Origin: Cyclobacteriaceae bacterium | GTDB lineage: Bacteria > Bacteroidota > Bacteroidia > Cytophagales > Cyclobacteriaceae | Length of the DNA: 43,892 nucleotides | Reading direction: 5' to 3' | NCBI GenBank assembly: GCA_020436085.1 | Contig: JAGQYM010000039.1 | Location: 1-43,892 of the forward strand | In this document: in pieces, positions 1,955-8,102 of the stretch | How the letters are laid out: each line of letters begins with the position of its first letter | Numbering within the stretch: position 1 is the stretch's first letter | Notes under the pieces: generated by a model | The model's database searches: none | Seen by the model: only the letters and a program-made list of their open reading frames with translations | Told to the model about the DNA's origin: nothing | Translations under genes and position numbers: made by a program

Positions 1955-2833
1955 CTATCGGTTCATCAAATACTTTTTTGGAGTCACACCAAATTTTTTC
2001 TTAAAGGCCGCGATGAAGTGACTTGGGTTGGTGTAGCCAATCTGATACGCAACTTCATTCACTTTGTATTTTCCAGAGTCGAGAAGCAGTTGAGCGTTGT
2101 CAAGTTTGTGATCCAGTAAAAATCCAAAAACCGTGTTTCCGTATATCTGCTTGAAGCCGACTTTAAGTTGATATTCGTTAAGCCCTGTTTTGCGAGCCAG
2201 TTCTTTTAAGCTTGGAGGAGTATCGCTGTTTTTCAGCAGATATTCTTTTGCATGTTTAATTTTTCTTACCACTTCCTCGTCATTTAGAAATGGACAGCTC
2301 TCTGTGTCAGCTTTCTTTTCTGAGAAATACAGGCTGATCAGCTCCAGCACCTTCCCTTGATAATAGAGTTTTTCGGAAGACTCACTCAGGTTGACTGTCA
2401 ACAGTTGATTTAGTACCACCATTAGTGAAGCCGGTATCTCCCTTTCATCGTAAAACTTCCTGTTGATGTTTTCAGGTTTTAAAAACGGAAGCGTGTCCAC
2501 AAACAAATGATGAAGGTGTTCAAGGGAGATAGTCAAAAAGACCATTTTGGTTCCGGGCGTTAGGTTGATGCGAAACGGCAGGTCTTTCTCGGGGTTGTAG
2601 AAAAAGTAATTCCTCCTCTTTTGGATTTCACGGGAATAATGTGGCCCGAATTCGAAAAGAGCGCTGCCTTCCATACAGAAGTAGAAGTGGATAAGGTTCT
2701 TTTTCAACTCCGTGTCGTAGCTTATTGACTCATCGGTCGTGTTCAAAGCGGTTTTTAGGGTGATTTCCTCGCGGTGATATAGTTCCCGTGTTATCCCTTC
2801 TTGGGTATTTTTATCTACCTGCAGTGCTTCCAT
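1955..2833 (-). CDS. AraC-family regulator beside the heme uptake genes
   Basis: A 292-residue cytosolic transcription regulator. The C-terminal 100 residues hold two helix-turn-helix units of the AraC/XylS class: SLKELARKTGLNEYQLKVGFKQIYG and VNEVAYQIGYTNPSHFIAAFKKKFGVTPKKY, the second close to the family signature. The N-terminal 180 residues form a probable sensory domain with no recognised ligand signature. It is transcribed away from the TonB receptor, with about 170 bases between the starts. PchR-type AraC regulators adjacent to siderophore or heme receptors commonly activate them when the iron source is present; by analogy this one may activate the 3006-6474 genes. That role is inference. 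The intergenic region holds a short inverted repeat AGGTT-N7-AACCT near 2868-2884 that could be a binding site, though this is weak. Confidence 0.85.
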   Translation of the reverse strand: MEALQVDKNTQEGITRELYHREEITLKTALNTTDESISYDTELKKNLIHFYFCMEGSALFEFGPHYSREIQKRRNYFFYNPEKDLPFRINLTPGTKMVFLTISLEHLHHLFVDTLPFLKPENINRKFYDEREIPASLMVVLNQLLTVNLSESSEKLYYQGKVLELISLYFSEKKADTESCPFLNDEEVVRKIKHAKEYLLKNSDTPPSLKELARKTGLNEYQLKVGFKQIYGNTVFGFLLDHKLDNAQLLLDSGKYKVNEVAYQIGYTNPSHFIAAFKKKFGVTPKKYLMNR

Positions 2834-2979
2834 AGTTTATTCCAGAATTAAAAATGACAATTATCAGGTTCGATTATAACCTAATTCATGCATTTGCGTT
2901 CCAAAAATACCAAATTTTGTTGCTTCGGATTATTAAAAAACCATTTGATACTAATTATACCTATTCAGGTATTTTTTAT

Positions 2980-2994
2980 TTAGAATGATTCTAA
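2980..2994. promoter_or_regulatory. 7-1-7 palindromic operator, Fur-family type (copy 1)
   Basis: TTAGAATGATTCTAA is a perfect 7-1-7 inverted repeat, 11 bases upstream of the preferred TonB receptor start. The architecture equals that of Fur (TGATAATNATTATCA) and PerR (TTATAATNATTATAA) boxes. The same sequence recurs at 6933-6947, with a one-mismatch copy at 6875-6889. Iron-dependent repression by a Fur-like protein is the simplest reading; the regulator is not in this window. A possible promoter (TTG at 2945-2947, TATTTTTT at 2970-2977) would place the box over the transcription start. Confidence 0.75.
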
Positions 2995-3005
2995 CCTTTG
3001 CCAGG

Positions 3006-5048
3006 ATGAAAAAATTAGCTCTTGTAGTATTGAATCTGGCTGTAGTAGTCGCGCCTCTTTTGGCTCAAGGTCAGACGGATACTTTGGCCACGCGCTTTCT
3101 CGAAGAGATTGTGGTAACAGGGCAGTTTGAACCTCAGTCAGCTAAGAAATCAGTTTACAATGTTCGAACAATTCCGATGGAGGTGATTCAGGCACGTGGA
3201 GCGACAAAGCTTGAAGATGTGCTCAACACGGAATTGAATATTCGCTTTACCCAAGATCAGGCATTGGGTGGATCCAACCTGTCCCTTCAAGGACTGGCAG
3301 GTCAGAACGTAAAGGTACTTGTAGATGGTGTTCCGATGGTTGGGAGACAAGGAACCACAAACGAGATCAATATCAATCAAATCAATCCACAGGCAGTGGA
3401 GAGAATTGAAATCGTAGAGGGACCTATGTCAGTCGTTTACGGGGCCGATGCGCTGGCAGGCGTTATCAACATCATTACTAAAAAGAATGTGGATGGAAAC
3501 TGGAGCATCAACGCCAGGGTTCAGGAAGAGACAGCCGGTGATGAATACAGTCTGGAAGAGGGTGTACACAATAAAAGCATTGGAGGAGGTTACTCCTGGG
3601 ATAAACTCTACACTCATCTGGATTTGACACGCAATGCTTTTGGCGGCTGGCAGGGAAATGCTCCAGAACGTGACAAGCAATGGCAACCAAAGAAACAGTG
3701 GTTAGGCAGTGGTGTGATCGGGTACAGGTTTGGTAAGAGTAATGTCTACTACCGGTTGGATTACCTCAACGAGAATATCTACAATCCAGGAATTTTTGAA
3801 GGCAATGAGGCACTCGATCAGGATTATATCACCAATCGATTCATGCACCAGGTTCAGGGAAATCATGAATTTTCAGATCGATTTGATTTCAATGGGGCAA
3901 TTGCACTTACAGACTATGAGCGGAAAACACAATCAAGCACGGTAAACCGGACAACCGGAGAAAGACGCTTGGCACTTGGCGCAGGTCTCCAGGATATTAC
4001 AAGATTTACGGGCGTCACTTTGCGTGGTACTTTTCAATATCGGTTAAATGACAAAGTAACAGTCCAACCAGGCTACGATATAAATCTTGAGAGCGGTGAG
4101 GGTGGAAGGATTGCCGATGGTGTTCAATCAATAAGTGACCTTGCTTTTTTTGGATCGGTAGAATGGGAGATTGCAAAGGGTTTTCAAATTAGACCAGGTA
4201 TTCGGGTGGTTCATAATTCTGTGTACACAGCCCCGCCAGTCATCCCTTCATTCAATTCAAAAATTATTTTGGGCAAGAATCATGACTTGCGCCTATCCTA
4301 TGGTAGGGGCTTCAGAGCACCCTCACTTCGTGAACTCTATTTTGACTTTTTTGACGCAAGCCACTCAGTTGAGGGGAATCAAAACCTTGAGGCTGAGCTG
4401 TCACACAGCTACAACGCAAACTGGAACTGGCAAATTAGCGACAACGGAACGTGGAAAATTAGTACCACGCTCGGGGGGTTCTACAACACAGTCACTAATA
4501 TGATTGGCTTTGGCCAAAAGCCAGGTAACACGTTGATCACCACCTATCTCAACATTGATAAATTTAAAACCGAGGGCGTGACACTTCGCGGAAATTTCAA
4601 AGCGCATAAGTTCACAGGCTCGCTTGGCTTCTCTTACATAGGCCGCTTCAACCAATATTCTGAAAGTGCAAATGACCTTGACGCATTTGTGTGGTCTCCG
4701 GAAGTTGTGTCGACACTTAGCTATAGACTTCCTGACGCAGGCTTGATTTTTTCTCTCTATCATAAATATACAGGAGTCACACCTTTCTATGAGATTGTAA
4801 ATGAAAATGGTCAGGACGAAGTGAGACTGGCTAAGATCAGCAGCTACCAATGGGCAGACTTCACAGTGCAGAAAGATCTATTAAAGAATTTCATCCTTTC
4901 CGGAGGAGTAAAAAATCTTTTTGATGTTCAGAATATTAACAATAGTTCGATATCGGGAAGTACACATAGTGCAGGCGGCAGCAGGCCAATAGGGTATGGC
5001 CGCTCGTATTTTCTAAGCTTAGCGTATTCAATAAGTAGTTCTAACTAA
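3006..5048 (+). CDS. TonB-dependent outer membrane receptor, heme type
   Basis: A 680-residue outer membrane receptor. The preferred start is 3006, because MKKLALVVLNLAVVVAPLLAQG is a clean signal peptide; the frame extends upstream to an ATG at 2985, but that codon lies inside the operator. A TonB-box-like EEIVVTGQ follows the signal, then the plug domain (about 35-150) and a 22-stranded barrel ending in an aromatic-rich strand. The barrel carries FRAPSLRELYF followed by GNQNLEAE, matching the FRAP/NPNL signature of heme receptors such as HemR and HmuR, with a histidine (DASHSVEG) between. The role would be TonB-driven import of heme or heme released from hemoproteins. The HmuY-like lipoprotein gene begins 7 bases after the stop, so the two form an operon. 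No hmuSTUV-like inner membrane transporter is nearby. The heme specificity rests on motifs and neighbours. Confidence 0.9.
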   Translation: MKKLALVVLNLAVVVAPLLAQGQTDTLATRFLEEIVVTGQFEPQSAKKSVYNVRTIPMEVIQARGATKLEDVLNTELNIRFTQDQALGGSNLSLQGLAGQNVKVLVDGVPMVGRQGTTNEININQINPQAVERIEIVEGPMSVVYGADALAGVINIITKKNVDGNWSINARVQEETAGDEYSLEEGVHNKSIGGGYSWDKLYTHLDLTRNAFGGWQGNAPERDKQWQPKKQWLGSGVIGYRFGKSNVYYRLDYLNENIYNPGIFEGNEALDQDYITNRFMHQVQGNHEFSDRFDFNGAIALTDYERKTQSSTVNRTTGERRLALGAGLQDITRFTGVTLRGTFQYRLNDKVTVQPGYDINLESGEGGRIADGVQSISDLAFFGSVEWEIAKGFQIRPGIRVVHNSVYTAPPVIPSFNSKIILGKNHDLRLSYGRGFRAPSLRELYFDFFDASHSVEGNQNLEAELSHSYNANWNWQISDNGTWKISTTLGGFYNTVTNMIGFGQKPGNTLITTYLNIDKFKTEGVTLRGNFKAHKFTGSLGFSYIGRFNQYSESANDLDAFVWSPEVVSTLSYRLPDAGLIFSLYHKYTGVTPFYEIVNENGQDEVRLAKISSYQWADFTVQKDLLKNFILSGGVKNLFDVQNINNSSISGSTHSAGGSRPIGYGRSYFLSLAYSISSSN

Positions 5049-5055
5049 TATAATC

Positions 5056-6474
5056 ATGACCAATTTCTTTAAGTATCTTTTTATTGTGATCCTCTTCGTG
5101 GGATTTACATCCTGTGAAGATGATTTGCAACTTCCGGATAATGTAATCGAATTTGAATCGAGCCAGCTAGGTTTTGTATCGACAGAGTCGGAGCTCGTCA
5201 TTAATATCAATTTTTCTCGCGAGGCCACAGAGGCCGGAAGTATTGAGCTAACAGCCACACTCACTGGATTAGATTACGGTGTTCAGTTTACAACTGATCC
5301 AGCGATGGAAGCTGGCAAATTAACAATACCTGTGGTGGTTGGAGCCACGAATGCTTCTTTTAAGGTAATTAAAGCGGAAGGCGTTGCCCTCCTTGGCGAT
5401 GAAACGATCAAGTTTACGATTTCATCTTCTGTTGATGCTTTAGTACTGGGAGAAAATGCAGAGCTGACGTTGAGCTTTGCTGAGATCGTGGCAACACTGG
5501 GAAATTTCGAGCCTAATGTGGGCGGAGATCTGCAACCGAATAAAGTGTTTATAGACCTTAGCGGCAGCCGTCAGTATTTCTTGTCGCGATCAGATTGGGA
5601 TCTTGGTTTCTATGCCGCTGACGACAAGTTTGTTGTGATCCTAAATAGCTCAACGGGCATGATGGCTCGACAACTGGATAAAAATAACCTGAATGATGTA
5701 ACTGCCTCTGACACGACTGGTTTCGGTCAGCAACTTTCCCTTGCTGCGGTTTTTGCAGCTGTGATGGGACCACCTCCGGGTTGGATATCAGAAACCATTA
5801 ACTGGATTGACGATCCAACGGGTAATCTTGACGCTACCGCTATTGCGGCTGTTTCTGCGACTGAAGACGATAACAAGGTATACATCGTCAACAGAGGAAA
5901 AAATGCAGATGGTAGCGAGCGTGGTTGGAAGAAAGTTAGGATCATCAGAAATGGAACTGGGTACACCGTTCAACATGCTGATATCAGTGCTACATCATTT
6001 GAGTCAATCAATGTAGCCAAAGATGACGACTATGTTTTCAATTACGTTCACTTCACCAATGGACTTGTAGAAGCTGAACCTAAGAAGGAAGCATGGGATA
6101 TCGCATTTACAGTGTTTACAAATTCTTTTCCACTAGATGCTTCGACCTTCATTCCGTTTGAATTCAAAGATTTTGTTATTCAAAACAGGACAGCGGCTAC
6201 ATTGCAGATTATGACATCCACCAAAAGTTTTGAATCCTTTGCTGAAGCAGATTTGACAGGACTTACCTTGTCAACTTCTCAAAAAGGAATTGGCTCTTCA
6301 TGGAGATCAATACCAAGTAACAGCTCAACACCTCCAAGTGTGAATAGCGATCGTTTTTATGTCGTGAAAGACGCTGCTGATAATTACTACAAAATAAAAT
6401 TCACTGCCCTAACCAAGTCAGGCGAAAGAGGCCATCCGGCATTCGACTTTGAGCTGGTAAAAAAAGGTAGTTAA
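5056..6474 (+). CDS. HmuY-like heme-binding lipoprotein with N-terminal Ig/Calx-like domain
   Basis: A 472-residue surface lipoprotein. The signal peptide ends in the lipobox FTSC with the lipidated cysteine at residue 20, followed by EDD. Residues about 25-165 resemble a Calx-beta or Ig-like beta sandwich (SELVININFSREATEAGSIE). From about 175 the HmuY pattern starts: KVFIDLSGSRQYFLSRSDWDLGFY, then WDIAFTVFTN near 350, both hallmarks of HmuY-family proteins. Porphyromonas HmuY (about 216 residues) is a hemophore passing heme to HmuR; this protein is twice as long because of the extra N-terminal domain and an extended C-terminal half. It is 7 bases downstream of the receptor gene and ends before a strong terminator. 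I did not identify heme ligands with certainty, so family membership is firmer than the exact ligand. Confidence 0.82.
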   Translation: MTNFFKYLFIVILFVGFTSCEDDLQLPDNVIEFESSQLGFVSTESELVININFSREATEAGSIELTATLTGLDYGVQFTTDPAMEAGKLTIPVVVGATNASFKVIKAEGVALLGDETIKFTISSSVDALVLGENAELTLSFAEIVATLGNFEPNVGGDLQPNKVFIDLSGSRQYFLSRSDWDLGFYAADDKFVVILNSSTGMMARQLDKNNLNDVTASDTTGFGQQLSLAAVFAAVMGPPPGWISETINWIDDPTGNLDATAIAAVSATEDDNKVYIVNRGKNADGSERGWKKVRIIRNGTGYTVQHADISATSFESINVAKDDDYVFNYVHFTNGLVEAEPKKEAWDIAFTVFTNSFPLDASTFIPFEFKDFVIQNRTAATLQIMTSTKSFESFAEADLTGLTLSTSQKGIGSSWRSIPSNSSTPPSVNSDRFYVVKDAADNYYKIKFTALTKSGERGHPAFDFELVKKGS

Positions 6475-6485
6475 GAGAGACTTAG

Positions 6486-6513
6486 AAAAAGCCGGAGATC
6501 CTCCGGCTTTTTT
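6486..6513. terminator. Bidirectional Rho-independent terminator
   Basis: A perfect hairpin with arms AAAAAGCCGGAG and CTCCGGCTTTTT around the loop ATC. It has A and T runs on both sides, so it can stop transcription from the HmuY-like gene (stop at 6474) and from the convergent IsdG-like gene (stop at 6543). Confidence 0.92.
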
Positions 6514-6542
6514 GTCAGAACGAGATCGTCAAAGGCGCAAAA

Positions 6543-6869
6543 TCATCTAGCGATCACATCATAGGTCTTAAACGTAGAAGACATTGGCGGCTTCTCCCCG
6601 CGTTCTTTTGCGATCCTAATGTCTTCGAAGCCACGCTTATGTCCCTCAAGAAATTCCGGAGACTTTGTCCACGCTTTAAAGTCTTCCTCAGACTTCCAGT
6701 GACTCACAATCAGATACTCATCACCTTTATTGGAAGGCTTTAATACCTGCATATTCACAAACCCGGGAAGACGGTCGATGGCGTGTGCCCTGGTGGCAAA
6801 TAGTTCTTCAAATCTGGCGGCATAGGCCTCATCACACTGGATGTAGTTGATTGCTACAAAATCATTCAT
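6543..6869 (-). CDS. IsdG/HmoB-type heme-degrading monooxygenase
   Basis: A 108-residue cytosolic protein of the antibiotic biosynthesis monooxygenase fold (dimeric alpha/beta barrel). I start it at 6869 (MNDFVAINY); the ATG five codons upstream lies within a degenerate operator. Numbered from this start, the IsdG catalytic triad is present: N8, W67 (KAW) and H77 (GHKRG), nearly identical in position to Staphylococcus aureus IsdG N7, W67 and H77. The segment SHWKSEEDFKAWTKSPEF also matches IsdG (VWKSKQAFTDWLKSDVF). The predicted reaction is oxidative opening of the heme ring to release iron. It converges on the receptor-HmuY operon and shares an intergenic region with two 7-1-7 boxes. Many proteins of this fold are not heme enzymes; the conserved triad and the neighbours make heme degradation likely here. 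Confidence 0.85.
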   Translation of the reverse strand: MNDFVAINYIQCDEAYAARFEELFATRAHAIDRLPGFVNMQVLKPSNKGDEYLIVSHWKSEEDFKAWTKSPEFLEGHKRGFEDIRIAKERGEKPPMSSTFKTYDVIAR

Positions 6870-6874
6870 ATTAT

Positions 6875-6889
6875 TTGGAATCATTCTAA
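6875..6889. promoter_or_regulatory. 7-1-7 operator, one mismatch (copy 2)
   Basis: TTGGAATCATTCTAA matches the palindrome TTAGAATNATTCTAA with a single mismatch. It lies 6 bases 5' of the preferred IsdG-like start and close to the transcription start predicted from the promoter at 6896-6925. Binding there would block initiation. It contains the upstream ATG of the longest frame of that gene. Confidence 0.6.
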
Positions 6890-6895
6890 AGAAGG

Positions 6896-6925
6896 CAAAG
6901 ATGCTACGAAATAGCCTTAATGCAA
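6896..6925 (-). promoter_or_regulatory. Probable Bacteroidota promoter of the IsdG-like gene
   Basis: Read on the minus strand, TTG (6923-6925) is followed after exactly 19 bases by CATCTTTG (6896-6903). This is one base from the Bacteroidota -33 TTG and -7 TAnnTTTG consensus. The predicted transcription start would fall in or just before the operator at 6875-6889. Confidence 0.5.
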
Positions 6926-6928
6926 GAC

Positions 6929-6956
6929 TTGTTTAGAATTATTCTAAATTATTTTG
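6929..6956 (+). promoter_or_regulatory. Possible promoter of the NagX-like gene
   Basis: TTG at 6929-6931, a 17-base spacer and TTATTTTG at 6949-6956 resemble the Bacteroidota promoter with one mismatch in the -7 element and a slightly short spacer. The spacer contains operator copy 3 in full. The predicted leader is about 30 bases. Confidence 0.35.
6933..6947. promoter_or_regulatory. 7-1-7 palindromic operator, Fur-family type (copy 3)
   Basis: TTAGAATTATTCTAA is a perfect 7-1-7 inverted repeat identical to copy 1 except for the central base. It lies between divergent genes: 63 bases from the IsdG-like start and 45 from the NagX-like start. On the plus strand it fills the spacer between a TTG at 6929-6931 and TTATTTTG at 6949-6956, so a bound repressor could shut the NagX-like gene as well. 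Confidence 0.75.
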
Positions 6957-6992: not shown

Positions 6993-8102
6993 ATGCAGTC
7001 TAATAGAAGCCTGTCAATTGACGTGCTACGCGGTCTTACTGTAGCGGTCATGATTGTGGTGAATTCACCTGGTAGCTGGGAATATGTTTACAGTCCTTTA
7101 TTGCACGCCCAATGGAATGGATTTACGCTCACCGATTGGGTGTTTCCGTCATTTCTTTTCGTAGTGGGTAATTCAATGAGCTTTAGTCTGGACAGGTACC
7201 GGCAAATGGGCACATCGGCATTTTTTACTAAAGTGATTAAGCGGACTGTATTGATTTTTTTGATAGGCTACTTGCTCATCTGGTTTCCGTTTTTCAGACA
7301 CAACGCTGAAGGTGAAATTTATTTGAAGTCTATTGAGTCGACAAGAATTTTTGGGGTACTGCAAAGAATTGCCTTGTGCTACTTCTTTGCATCCATTATG
7401 ATCTACTATTTAAGCGAACGCGCTACTTTAATTCTGTCAATGGCCATGCTTGTAGCTTATCACCTCGTGCTTGTCATATTTGGTGACTTGACCTTGGCTG
7501 GTAATGCGGTCTTAAAGTTTGATTTATGGCTGGTAGGTGATGCGCACATGTATCATGGTGAAGGACTTGCGTTTGATCCGGAAGGATTTCTCAGCACACT
7601 TCCTGCGGTGGTCAATGTGATCGGAGGATACTGGGCAGGCGTCTTCTTACGAAAGAAAGGAGCGACCTACGAGACTATCGCAAAGATGATGGTGGTCGGT
7701 GTGATTTTTATAGTTGCAGGATTTGCCTGGGACATTCTCCTTCCATTCAACAAAAAAATATGGACCAGTAGTTATGTACTGTTAACGATTGGCATCAACC
7801 TTCACCTCTTGGCTCTTCTTACCTTCGTTATCGACCTAAGGCAAAATAGGAAGTGGACATATTTTTTTGATGTTTTTGGAAAAAATACGTTGTTCATTTA
7901 TGTGGCCTCTTCTTTGATTACTGACATTATACTTTTCCTTAGCATCGGAGATCACAACATATACGATTGGTTTTATGTGATGGTGTTTCAGTCCATCTTT
8001 GGAAACTACCTTGGATCTTTTCTTTTTGCGCTCGCCTTCTTGATGGTGTGTTGGCTTATAGGCTTGTGGATGGACAAGAAGAAAATCTATATCAAAATTT
8101 AG
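6993..8102 (+). CDS. NagX/HGSNAT-like membrane acyltransferase (DUF5009 group)
   Basis: A 369-residue polytopic inner membrane protein with about ten hydrophobic segments. The N-terminus SLSIDVLRGLTVAVMIVVN, then SPLLHAQWNGFTLTDWVFPSFLFVVG, is the signature of the family of human heparan-alpha-glucosaminide N-acetyltransferase and bacterial NagX. The histidine in LLHAQW corresponds to the proposed acyl-carrying residue; the next position, often WHG, is WNG here. The family is thought to move an acyl group across the membrane onto a sugar, often in N-acetylglucosamine use, but no sugar genes lie nearby. It is divergent from the IsdG-like gene and has an operator copy inside its likely promoter, hinting at iron control. 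Its stop overlaps the dnaX stop by 4 bases (convergent). Confidence 0.85.
   Translation: MQSNRSLSIDVLRGLTVAVMIVVNSPGSWEYVYSPLLHAQWNGFTLTDWVFPSFLFVVGNSMSFSLDRYRQMGTSAFFTKVIKRTVLIFLIGYLLIWFPFFRHNAEGEIYLKSIESTRIFGVLQRIALCYFFASIMIYYLSERATLILSMAMLVAYHLVLVIFGDLTLAGNAVLKFDLWLVGDAHMYHGEGLAFDPEGFLSTLPAVVNVIGGYWAGVFLRKKGATYETIAKMMVVGVIFIVAGFAWDILLPFNKKIWTSSYVLLTIGINLHLLALLTFVIDLRQNRKWTYFFDVFGKNTLFIYVASSLITDIILFLSIGDHNIYDWFYVMVFQSIFGNYLGSFLFALAFLMVCWLIGLWMDKKKIYIKI

Follow-up and report, generated by a model that had tools for sequence, protein, structure and literature searches.

A Fur-Box-Like Palindrome at a Heme Uptake Locus of a Cyclobacteriaceae Bacterium and the Iron Genes That Carry It in Relatives

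Introduction

Fur and PerR boxes of Escherichia coli and Bacillus subtilis have a 7-1-7 form (TGATAATNATTATCA, TTATAATNATTATAA). A palindrome of this geometry, TTAGAATNATTCTAA, stands at the heme uptake genes hmuR and hmuY and at two neighboring genes in a 43,892-nucleotide stretch of DNA from a Cyclobacteriaceae bacterium (assembly GCA_020436085.1, contig JAGQYM010000039.1, positions 1 to 43,892; hereafter the window), and the comparisons described below indicate that it is very probably the operator of the resident Fur protein.

Fur boxes of Bacteroidota look poorly documented, and the one explicit consensus found in a partial literature survey is that of Riemerella anatipestifer. The Fur box predicted for this bacterium is ATTTAGAATTATTCTAAAT, hmuR is listed with ATTTAAAATTATTCTAAAT, and four promoters were studied by electrophoretic mobility shift assay (EMSA) (PMC5609570); the abstract of that paper prints the E. 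coli Fur box, while its results give ATTTAGAATTATTCTAAAT. The R. anatipestifer gene rhuB, with the box ATTTAGAATTATCCTAAAT, was reported to be bound by Fur in a Mn-dependent manner in EMSA and to be derepressed in a fur mutant and under low iron (PMC10986502), and rhuH was reported to be derepressed on mutation of its Fur box (PMC11967795). In Porphyromonas gingivalis, PgFur was reported to bind the hmu promoter, while its failure to bind the E. coli box is mentioned as data not shown (PMC6613475), and the consulted passages of the PgFur and Har accounts give no consensus box (PMC6613475, PMC4222909).

Palindrome Copies and Their Probable Target Genes

A pattern search of the window located perfect copies of TTAGAATNATTCTAA at 2980-2994 and 6933-6947 and a copy with one mismatch at 6875-6889, the same coordinates and mismatch counts that an earlier note, made from the letters of the window, had given. 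The seven other TTAGAATNATTCTAA-like matches in the window each have 3 mismatches, in agreement with the remark of that note that no other full copy occurs in the 43.9 kb, and the total of 10 compares with a shuffle mean of 3.49, none of 100 shuffles having reached 10. All three copies lie at gene starts, between a start and its upstream region as had been claimed. The first (element 2978..2996, annotated without strand like the other two) is 11 bp 5' of the likely hmuR ATG (3006), between an AraC-linked element and a -7-like promoter box; the second (6873..6891) is 5 bp 5' of the ATG of a putative heme-degrading monooxygenase of the ABM family (6869, minus strand); and the third (6931..6949), in the divergent promoter region shared by the ABM gene and a NagX-like gene, is 45 bp 5' of the NagX-like ATG (6993). 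Paired sites were seen in several relatives, with a spacing of about 57-63 bp or 37-38 bp (e.g., 6875/6933 in the window and 4805/4843 in locus L047). A scan of the window with Rfam gave no element at the gathering threshold.

The enrichment of the palindrome at gene starts was clear among related genomes. In 39 genomes, the own genome included, 113 sites were found at ≤1 mismatch, of which 112 were examined and one, in G035, was left out; the reversed pattern, searched as a control in 24 of the 39 genomes, gave 48 sites. With a gene-start class running from 125 bp inside an over-long open reading frame (ORF) to 200 bp downstream, 85 of the 112 test sites were at gene starts, 23 inside genes and 4 elsewhere, compared with 8, 32 and 8 of the 48 control sites. 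When the comparison is restricted to the 24 genomes with a control, 55 of 71 test sites are at gene starts (16 inside genes) versus 8 of 48 for the control (Fisher p about 4e-11).

Iron, heme or Fe-S genes, assigned by hand and with Pfam support for most, follow 62 of the 85 promoter sites, while one of the eight control promoter sites, at a feoB-like gene, would count as an iron target. TonB receptors occur at 33 of the 85; the Plug domain was present in 17 of the 17 scanned, and the rest were assigned via their BLAST cluster or the window receptor. Other targets among the 62 are six ABM genes, five multiheme cytochromes, four CbiX genes, three DUF6686 genes (the one in L055 upstream of a Peripla_BP_2/FecCD/ABC_tran set) and two solute-binding proteins not known to have iron as their substrate, together with one each of heme oxygenase, PepSY, Nfu, hemA, aconitase, a Mrp-type gene, a NifS-like aminotransferase, SufB and FeoB. 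The non-heme targets in this list (feoB, sufB, nfu, aconitase, Mrp-type) point to iron rather than to heme alone, and the predicted regulon therefore looks like one of general iron homeostasis. Moreover, a logo of the 85 promoter sites showed that flanks which had formed no part of the search are conserved and symmetric, with TTAT before and ATAA after the core, giving a 23-bp palindrome, TTAT-TTAGAATNATTCTAA-ATAA. As a separate observation, four receptor loci without an adjacent AraC gene (L128, L130, L133, L135) have TATTNAGTCTAAATA-like palindromes upstream of the receptor, which have the CTAAATA half-site in common with the main box and a shorter spacing, and which might be a variant Fur box.

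In the own genome (G000, 4.42 Mb, 98.9% complete), the extended pattern ATTTAGAATNATTCTAAAT gave 16 sites at ≤3 mismatches versus 3 for its control. Four of these are the window sites and that at CbiX-PepSY (contig C121); eleven more were inspected and one was left uninspected. Among the further loci, a site lies 9 bp 5' of the SufB gene (C11), another lies 19 bp 5' of a gene for a 191-aa protein without a family and 175 bp 5' of a multiheme cytochrome c gene (C122), and others lie at the start of a [2Fe-2S] protein gene (C44), 5' of a rhomboid protein gene (C125) and 122 bp 5' of a gene for a protein without a family (C22). The own-genome sites thus stand at hmuR-hmuY, ABM/NagX-like, CbiX-PepSY and sufB and, less closely, at the multiheme cytochrome c gene, which is more an iron regulon than a single heme locus, with some noise.

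Beyond the relatives, the exact 17-mer core TTTAGAATNATTCTAAA was present in 89 of 395 sampled genomes of the class, whereas the reversed control was present in one. Thirty of the class-wide matches were fetched, and 28 had a gene start near. Of ten genes scanned, nine had a family: ScdA/hemerythrin, DUF6686, cytochrome c, Fe-S_biosyn (two), hemA, heme oxygenase and TonB receptors (two). With its occurrence at Fe-S, heme-synthesis and receptor genes, the exact core could serve as a search motif for iron regulons in Bacteroidota.

Fur as the Probable Reader

The genome encodes a Fur protein of 156 aa (C160:1921-2391), which scored 100 bits in a profile search of the own genome, two further Fur-family hits scoring 50 and 26. 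It has the metal-site residues QHDH, CxxC and the Glu in VTEFCDP, its closest solved relatives are Fur proteins, and its helix VSRATVYNTLD is identical in 29 of 30 aligned Fur sequences, that of G037 deviating. A 7-1-7 palindrome at promoters, its association with iron genes across genomes, a resident Fur that carries the metal-site residues and the match to the Fur-bound box of the same phylum (ATTTAGAATTATTCTAAAT, ATTTAGAATTATCCTAAAT) all argue for Fur, and we regard it as highly probable that the palindrome is the operator of this protein. The earlier note had proposed a Fur-type operator of this organism, a proposal that the gene-start enrichment, the iron targets and the Riemerella box support; the genome search at ≤1 mismatch that it had put forward as a check was mostly in its favor, the enrichment being clear in relatives and weak in the own genome.

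Several observations weigh against this assignment. Of the 112 sites, 23 are inside genes and four lack a nearby gene start, and no iron link was visible for 23 of the 85 at promoters. At ≤1 mismatch the own genome has 7 TTAGAATNATTCTAA sites versus 4 for the reversed control, which is weak and means that some sites at this threshold are noise; no iron gene was seen at three of the seven (C147:65797, C147:110716, C159:9519). Six of the eleven further extended-pattern loci have the site within a gene (L384, L386-L390), and the own-genome matches beyond the targets named above are within genes or at unrelated genes. No site at ≤2 mismatches occurs in a 9-kb stretch around the own fur gene, so there is no sign of fur autoregulation. 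At the receptor, 15 of the 26 named relatives with an adjacent AraC gene are without the palindrome (≤2 mismatches). As well, G001 has the same Fur helix yet no site at ≤1 mismatch, and it is also without a clear AraC ortholog.

A further point against Fur is that no clear Fur hit was obtained in seven site-bearing relatives (G004, G013, G014, G017, G020, G029, G033), G017 having only a Zur-like hit in its place. In G014, G017 and G020, however, relA, the neighbor of fur, was also not found (E 1e-100), which makes assembly gaps likely; two others of the seven allow no judgment, part of the fetched sequence reading N; G004 has only a piece of relA, at a contig end; and the sole site of G029 lies inside a gene. 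In several assemblies, about 2 kb separate the fur gene from a contig end (e.g., L044, on C160 of the own genome), and its absence from some assemblies may therefore be an assembly gap. After the relA and N-stretch checks, the missing Fur in G013 and G017 was set aside as uninformative.

The gene for an AraC-family regulator adjoins hmuR in the window and in 26 of the 80 receptor loci fetched (27 AraC-adjacent loci with the window, and 54 others), and the palindrome might instead be the operator of this regulator, especially as AraC orthologs and sites often co-occur across the genus, G001 is without both, and G018, likewise without a site, has its AraC match in two pieces with a stop. It is a different element, GGGTATTTT, that tracks AraC: at ≤1 mismatch it is present in 26 of the 27 AraC-adjacent receptor loci versus 3 of the 54 others, a descriptive rather than blind count given that the pattern was chosen after viewing the alignment, and, as a better check, in 7 of 7 AraC/hmuR palindrome promoters versus 1 of 78 other palindrome promoters. 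The 15 AraC-adjacent relatives without a palindrome at the receptor also speak against AraC, five of them (L069, L070, L078, L082, L138) keeping a site at ABM or CbiX; moreover, in G025, G027, G035 and G036, where no clear AraC ortholog was seen, iron, heme or receptor genes carry sites. AraC was rejected as the reader on account of the separate element and of the sites in genomes without a clear ortholog, and we hold this explanation to be very improbable. A repressor of the DtxR/MntR family or a Zur-like paralogue, for its part, is an extremely unlikely reader. DtxR-family genes occur widely in the order, being present in 33 of 39 genomes, and DtxR boxes have TTAG..CTAA in common with the palindrome; nevertheless, no DtxR-family hit was obtained in G000 or G027, and G002 and G019, both 100% complete, gave none for a second Fur paralogue of the Zur-like kind, while all four of these genomes have one or more sites at iron, heme or receptor genes. 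Genes for zinc or manganese were not prominent among the annotated targets, no search having been aimed at such genes. Both readers were rejected for their absence from some site-bearing genomes.

It is also very unlikely that a Fur-family member of the PerR or Irr type, sensing peroxide or heme, reads the palindrome. The box starts with TTA like PerR boxes and resembles the Irr/ICE box TTTAGAA-NNN-TTCTAAA, and the resident Fur has the PerR-like ATVYN, which would fit a box starting with TTA, where E. coli Fur has ATVYR. The genome, however, holds only one full-scoring Fur-like protein, which keeps the Glu where PerR has Asp, and the annotated targets have to do with iron, heme and Fe-S; catalase and alkyl hydroperoxide reductase were not noticed among them, with no search aimed at these. 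The NCBIfam PerR and Irr scores of the two Fur-family proteins scanned are far under the cut-off, and so are their Fur scores. Fur remains the likely reader: some genomes that keep sites have no clear AraC ortholog, others no DtxR-family or no Zur-like protein, and the neighboring AraC gene has a conserved element of its own.

The hmuR Promoter

The longest hmuR ORF starts with an ATG at 2985, within the first palindrome; the ATG at 3006 is preferred as the start because the TTTG of the -7-like box ends at 3000. This box, AACCTTTG (2993..3000, plus strand), was read from an alignment of 26 loci, in which TTG is invariant and the preceding T occurs in 88%; on the Bacteroidota -7 consensus, we take it to be the promoter box of hmuR. 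Only 5 bases separate the TTTG from the likely ATG (2997-3006), and the hmuR transcript may therefore be leaderless. A sigma-70 promoter scan of the window gave 7 hits versus a shuffle mean of 9.2, that is, no excess, as expected for Bacteroidota promoters.

Upstream of the palindrome lies the asymmetric element G..A.TAAT.AT.C.T....GGGTATTTT (here AGGTATTTT; 2947..2975, plus strand, coordinates read from the sequence), a probable AraC-type activator site, whose distance to the -7-like TTTG is the same in all 26 aligned loci, including those where the palindrome is gone. An initial pattern for it (24 letters, with a wrong spacing) was dropped for poor separation, with 4-7 versus 5-9 mismatches. 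The palindrome itself, at ≤1 mismatch, is present in 12 of the 27 AraC-hmuR intergenic regions. In addition, a reverse-complement copy, GGTATTTTTG (2902..2911, minus strand), is 88 bases from the araC start in the window and is a possible autoregulation site; of the 26 aligned loci, 17 have a reverse copy GGTATTTT (≤1 mismatch) at a distance of 81-96 bases from the araC start and three have one at 36-59 bases, the best copy being elsewhere in six.

It is probable, from this arrangement, that 2947..2975 is an upstream AraC activator site, that Fur blocks the spacer and the -7 region, and that hmuR has two controls; the suggestion of the earlier note that the one palindrome controls the locus was overstated, given the second conserved element that tracks the adjacent AraC gene. 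More broadly, we consider it somewhat more plausible than the contrary that hmuR promoters of the Cyclobacteriaceae-related clade are two-input gates, in which a dedicated AraC-family activator acts on a conserved 29-bp element that is evenly spaced from the -7 box and often copied in the activator's own promoter, and Fur represses via the palindrome between element and box; the Fur input would be missing in part of the clade with the AraC input kept, and the same Fur operator would be a general iron box of much of the class Bacteroidia. The separate AraC-linked element suggests a testable heme-receptor activator.

Genes of the Locus

The gene calls of the earlier note for a TonB receptor, an HmuY-like lipoprotein and an IsdG-type enzyme agree with the domain matches, that of the last being to the ABM family. 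The HmuR-like TonB-dependent heme receptor (3006..5048, plus strand) matches PF07715 (Plug) and PF00593 (barrel), as well as TIGR01785 TonB-hemin with 143.3 bits, under the cut-off; of the FRAP/NPNL motifs ascribed to it, FRAP is present in the translation, and NQNL stands where NPNL was expected. Its nearest named relatives are from Cyclobacteriaceae/Flammeovirgaceae metagenome assemblies. The HmuY-like lipoprotein (5056..6474, plus strand; PF14064, 4.7e-20) follows in tandem, making up a HmuR/HmuY pair, and a HmuY match lies 3' of the receptor in all 80 fetched receptor loci. The ABM protein, a putative heme-degrading monooxygenase of the HmuQ/IsdG type (6543..6869, minus strand; PF03992), has HmuQ as its best NCBIfam match (54.5 bits versus a cut-off of 130), and its PDB relatives include HmoB, Rv3592, IsdI and IsdG. 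Divergent from it is a NagX-like membrane acyltransferase gene (6993..8102, plus strand; NF046061, 175.8 bits, under the cut-off). The AraC-family regulator (1955..2833, minus strand) matches PF12833 and PF00165, and its best NCBIfam match, Btr, is far under the cut-off.

The locus had also been called a complete heme acquisition locus, which does not hold: there is no match to HmuTUV or HemS within the window, and none to HemS in the whole genome. In the flanks of the 80 receptor loci (L060-L139), ABM was seen in 5 and HemS in 32, never both together, and the two are perhaps alternative heme-degrading partners. Between hmuY and the ABM gene, a hairpin AAAGCCGGAG-ATC-CTCCGGCTTT with T runs was noticed at 6488-6510, by eye a two-way terminator; it is absent from the output of the program scan.

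Proposed Mechanism

From the positions, enrichment and conservation of the sites and the presence of Fur, we infer the following mode of control. With enough iron, Fe(II)-loaded Fur dimers would occupy the TTAT-TTAGAATNATTCTAA-ATAA sites, which lie across promoters or gene starts at hmuR-hmuY, ABM and, probably, the NagX-like gene, as well as at CbiX-PepSY and sufB elsewhere in the genome, and bound Fur would keep RNA polymerase off. When iron falls, Fur would leave, and heme uptake and breakdown would be switched on. At hmuR, the AraC-type activator element immediately 5' of the palindrome probably brings in a second signal, of substrate or status, such that the promoter would fire only when low iron and the AraC signal coincide.

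Comparison with Known Systems

With the Fur and PerR boxes of E. coli and B. subtilis, the palindrome shares the 7-1-7 geometry and the AATNATT core; it differs from the E. coli Fur box in having T at heptamer position 2 and G at position 4, and from the PerR box at position 4. The alphaproteobacterial Irr/ICE box is nearly the same palindrome, at heme and iron genes, and Irr is likewise of the Fur superfamily; neither of the two own Fur-family proteins scanned, however, reaches the NCBIfam Irr cut-off. Repression by Irr is reported to occur when iron is depleted (PMC3413700), whereas the Fur proposed here would repress when iron is sufficient. PgFur/Har of P. gingivalis offers a parallel, as a Fur homologue from Bacteroidota that recognizes an hmu promoter but fails to bind the E. 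coli box (PMC6613475, PMC4222909), whereas Har is described as being without the usual HxH metal site (PMC4222909) and the Fur studied here keeps QHDH.

The closest likeness is to the R. anatipestifer Fur box, with the same 19-bp palindrome core, targets that include hmuR/rhuR, rhuB and other TonB receptors, and sites predicted no farther than 100 bp from the start codon; there, according to the papers cited in the Introduction, Fur binding was seen by EMSA and derepression without Fur or the box. R. anatipestifer belongs to the Flavobacteriales, while the present locus has the AraC-linked element at hmuR, and its genome has predicted Fe-S (sufB) and CbiX targets. The operator is thus already known from Riemerella, and its presence here, together with its spread, is an extension.

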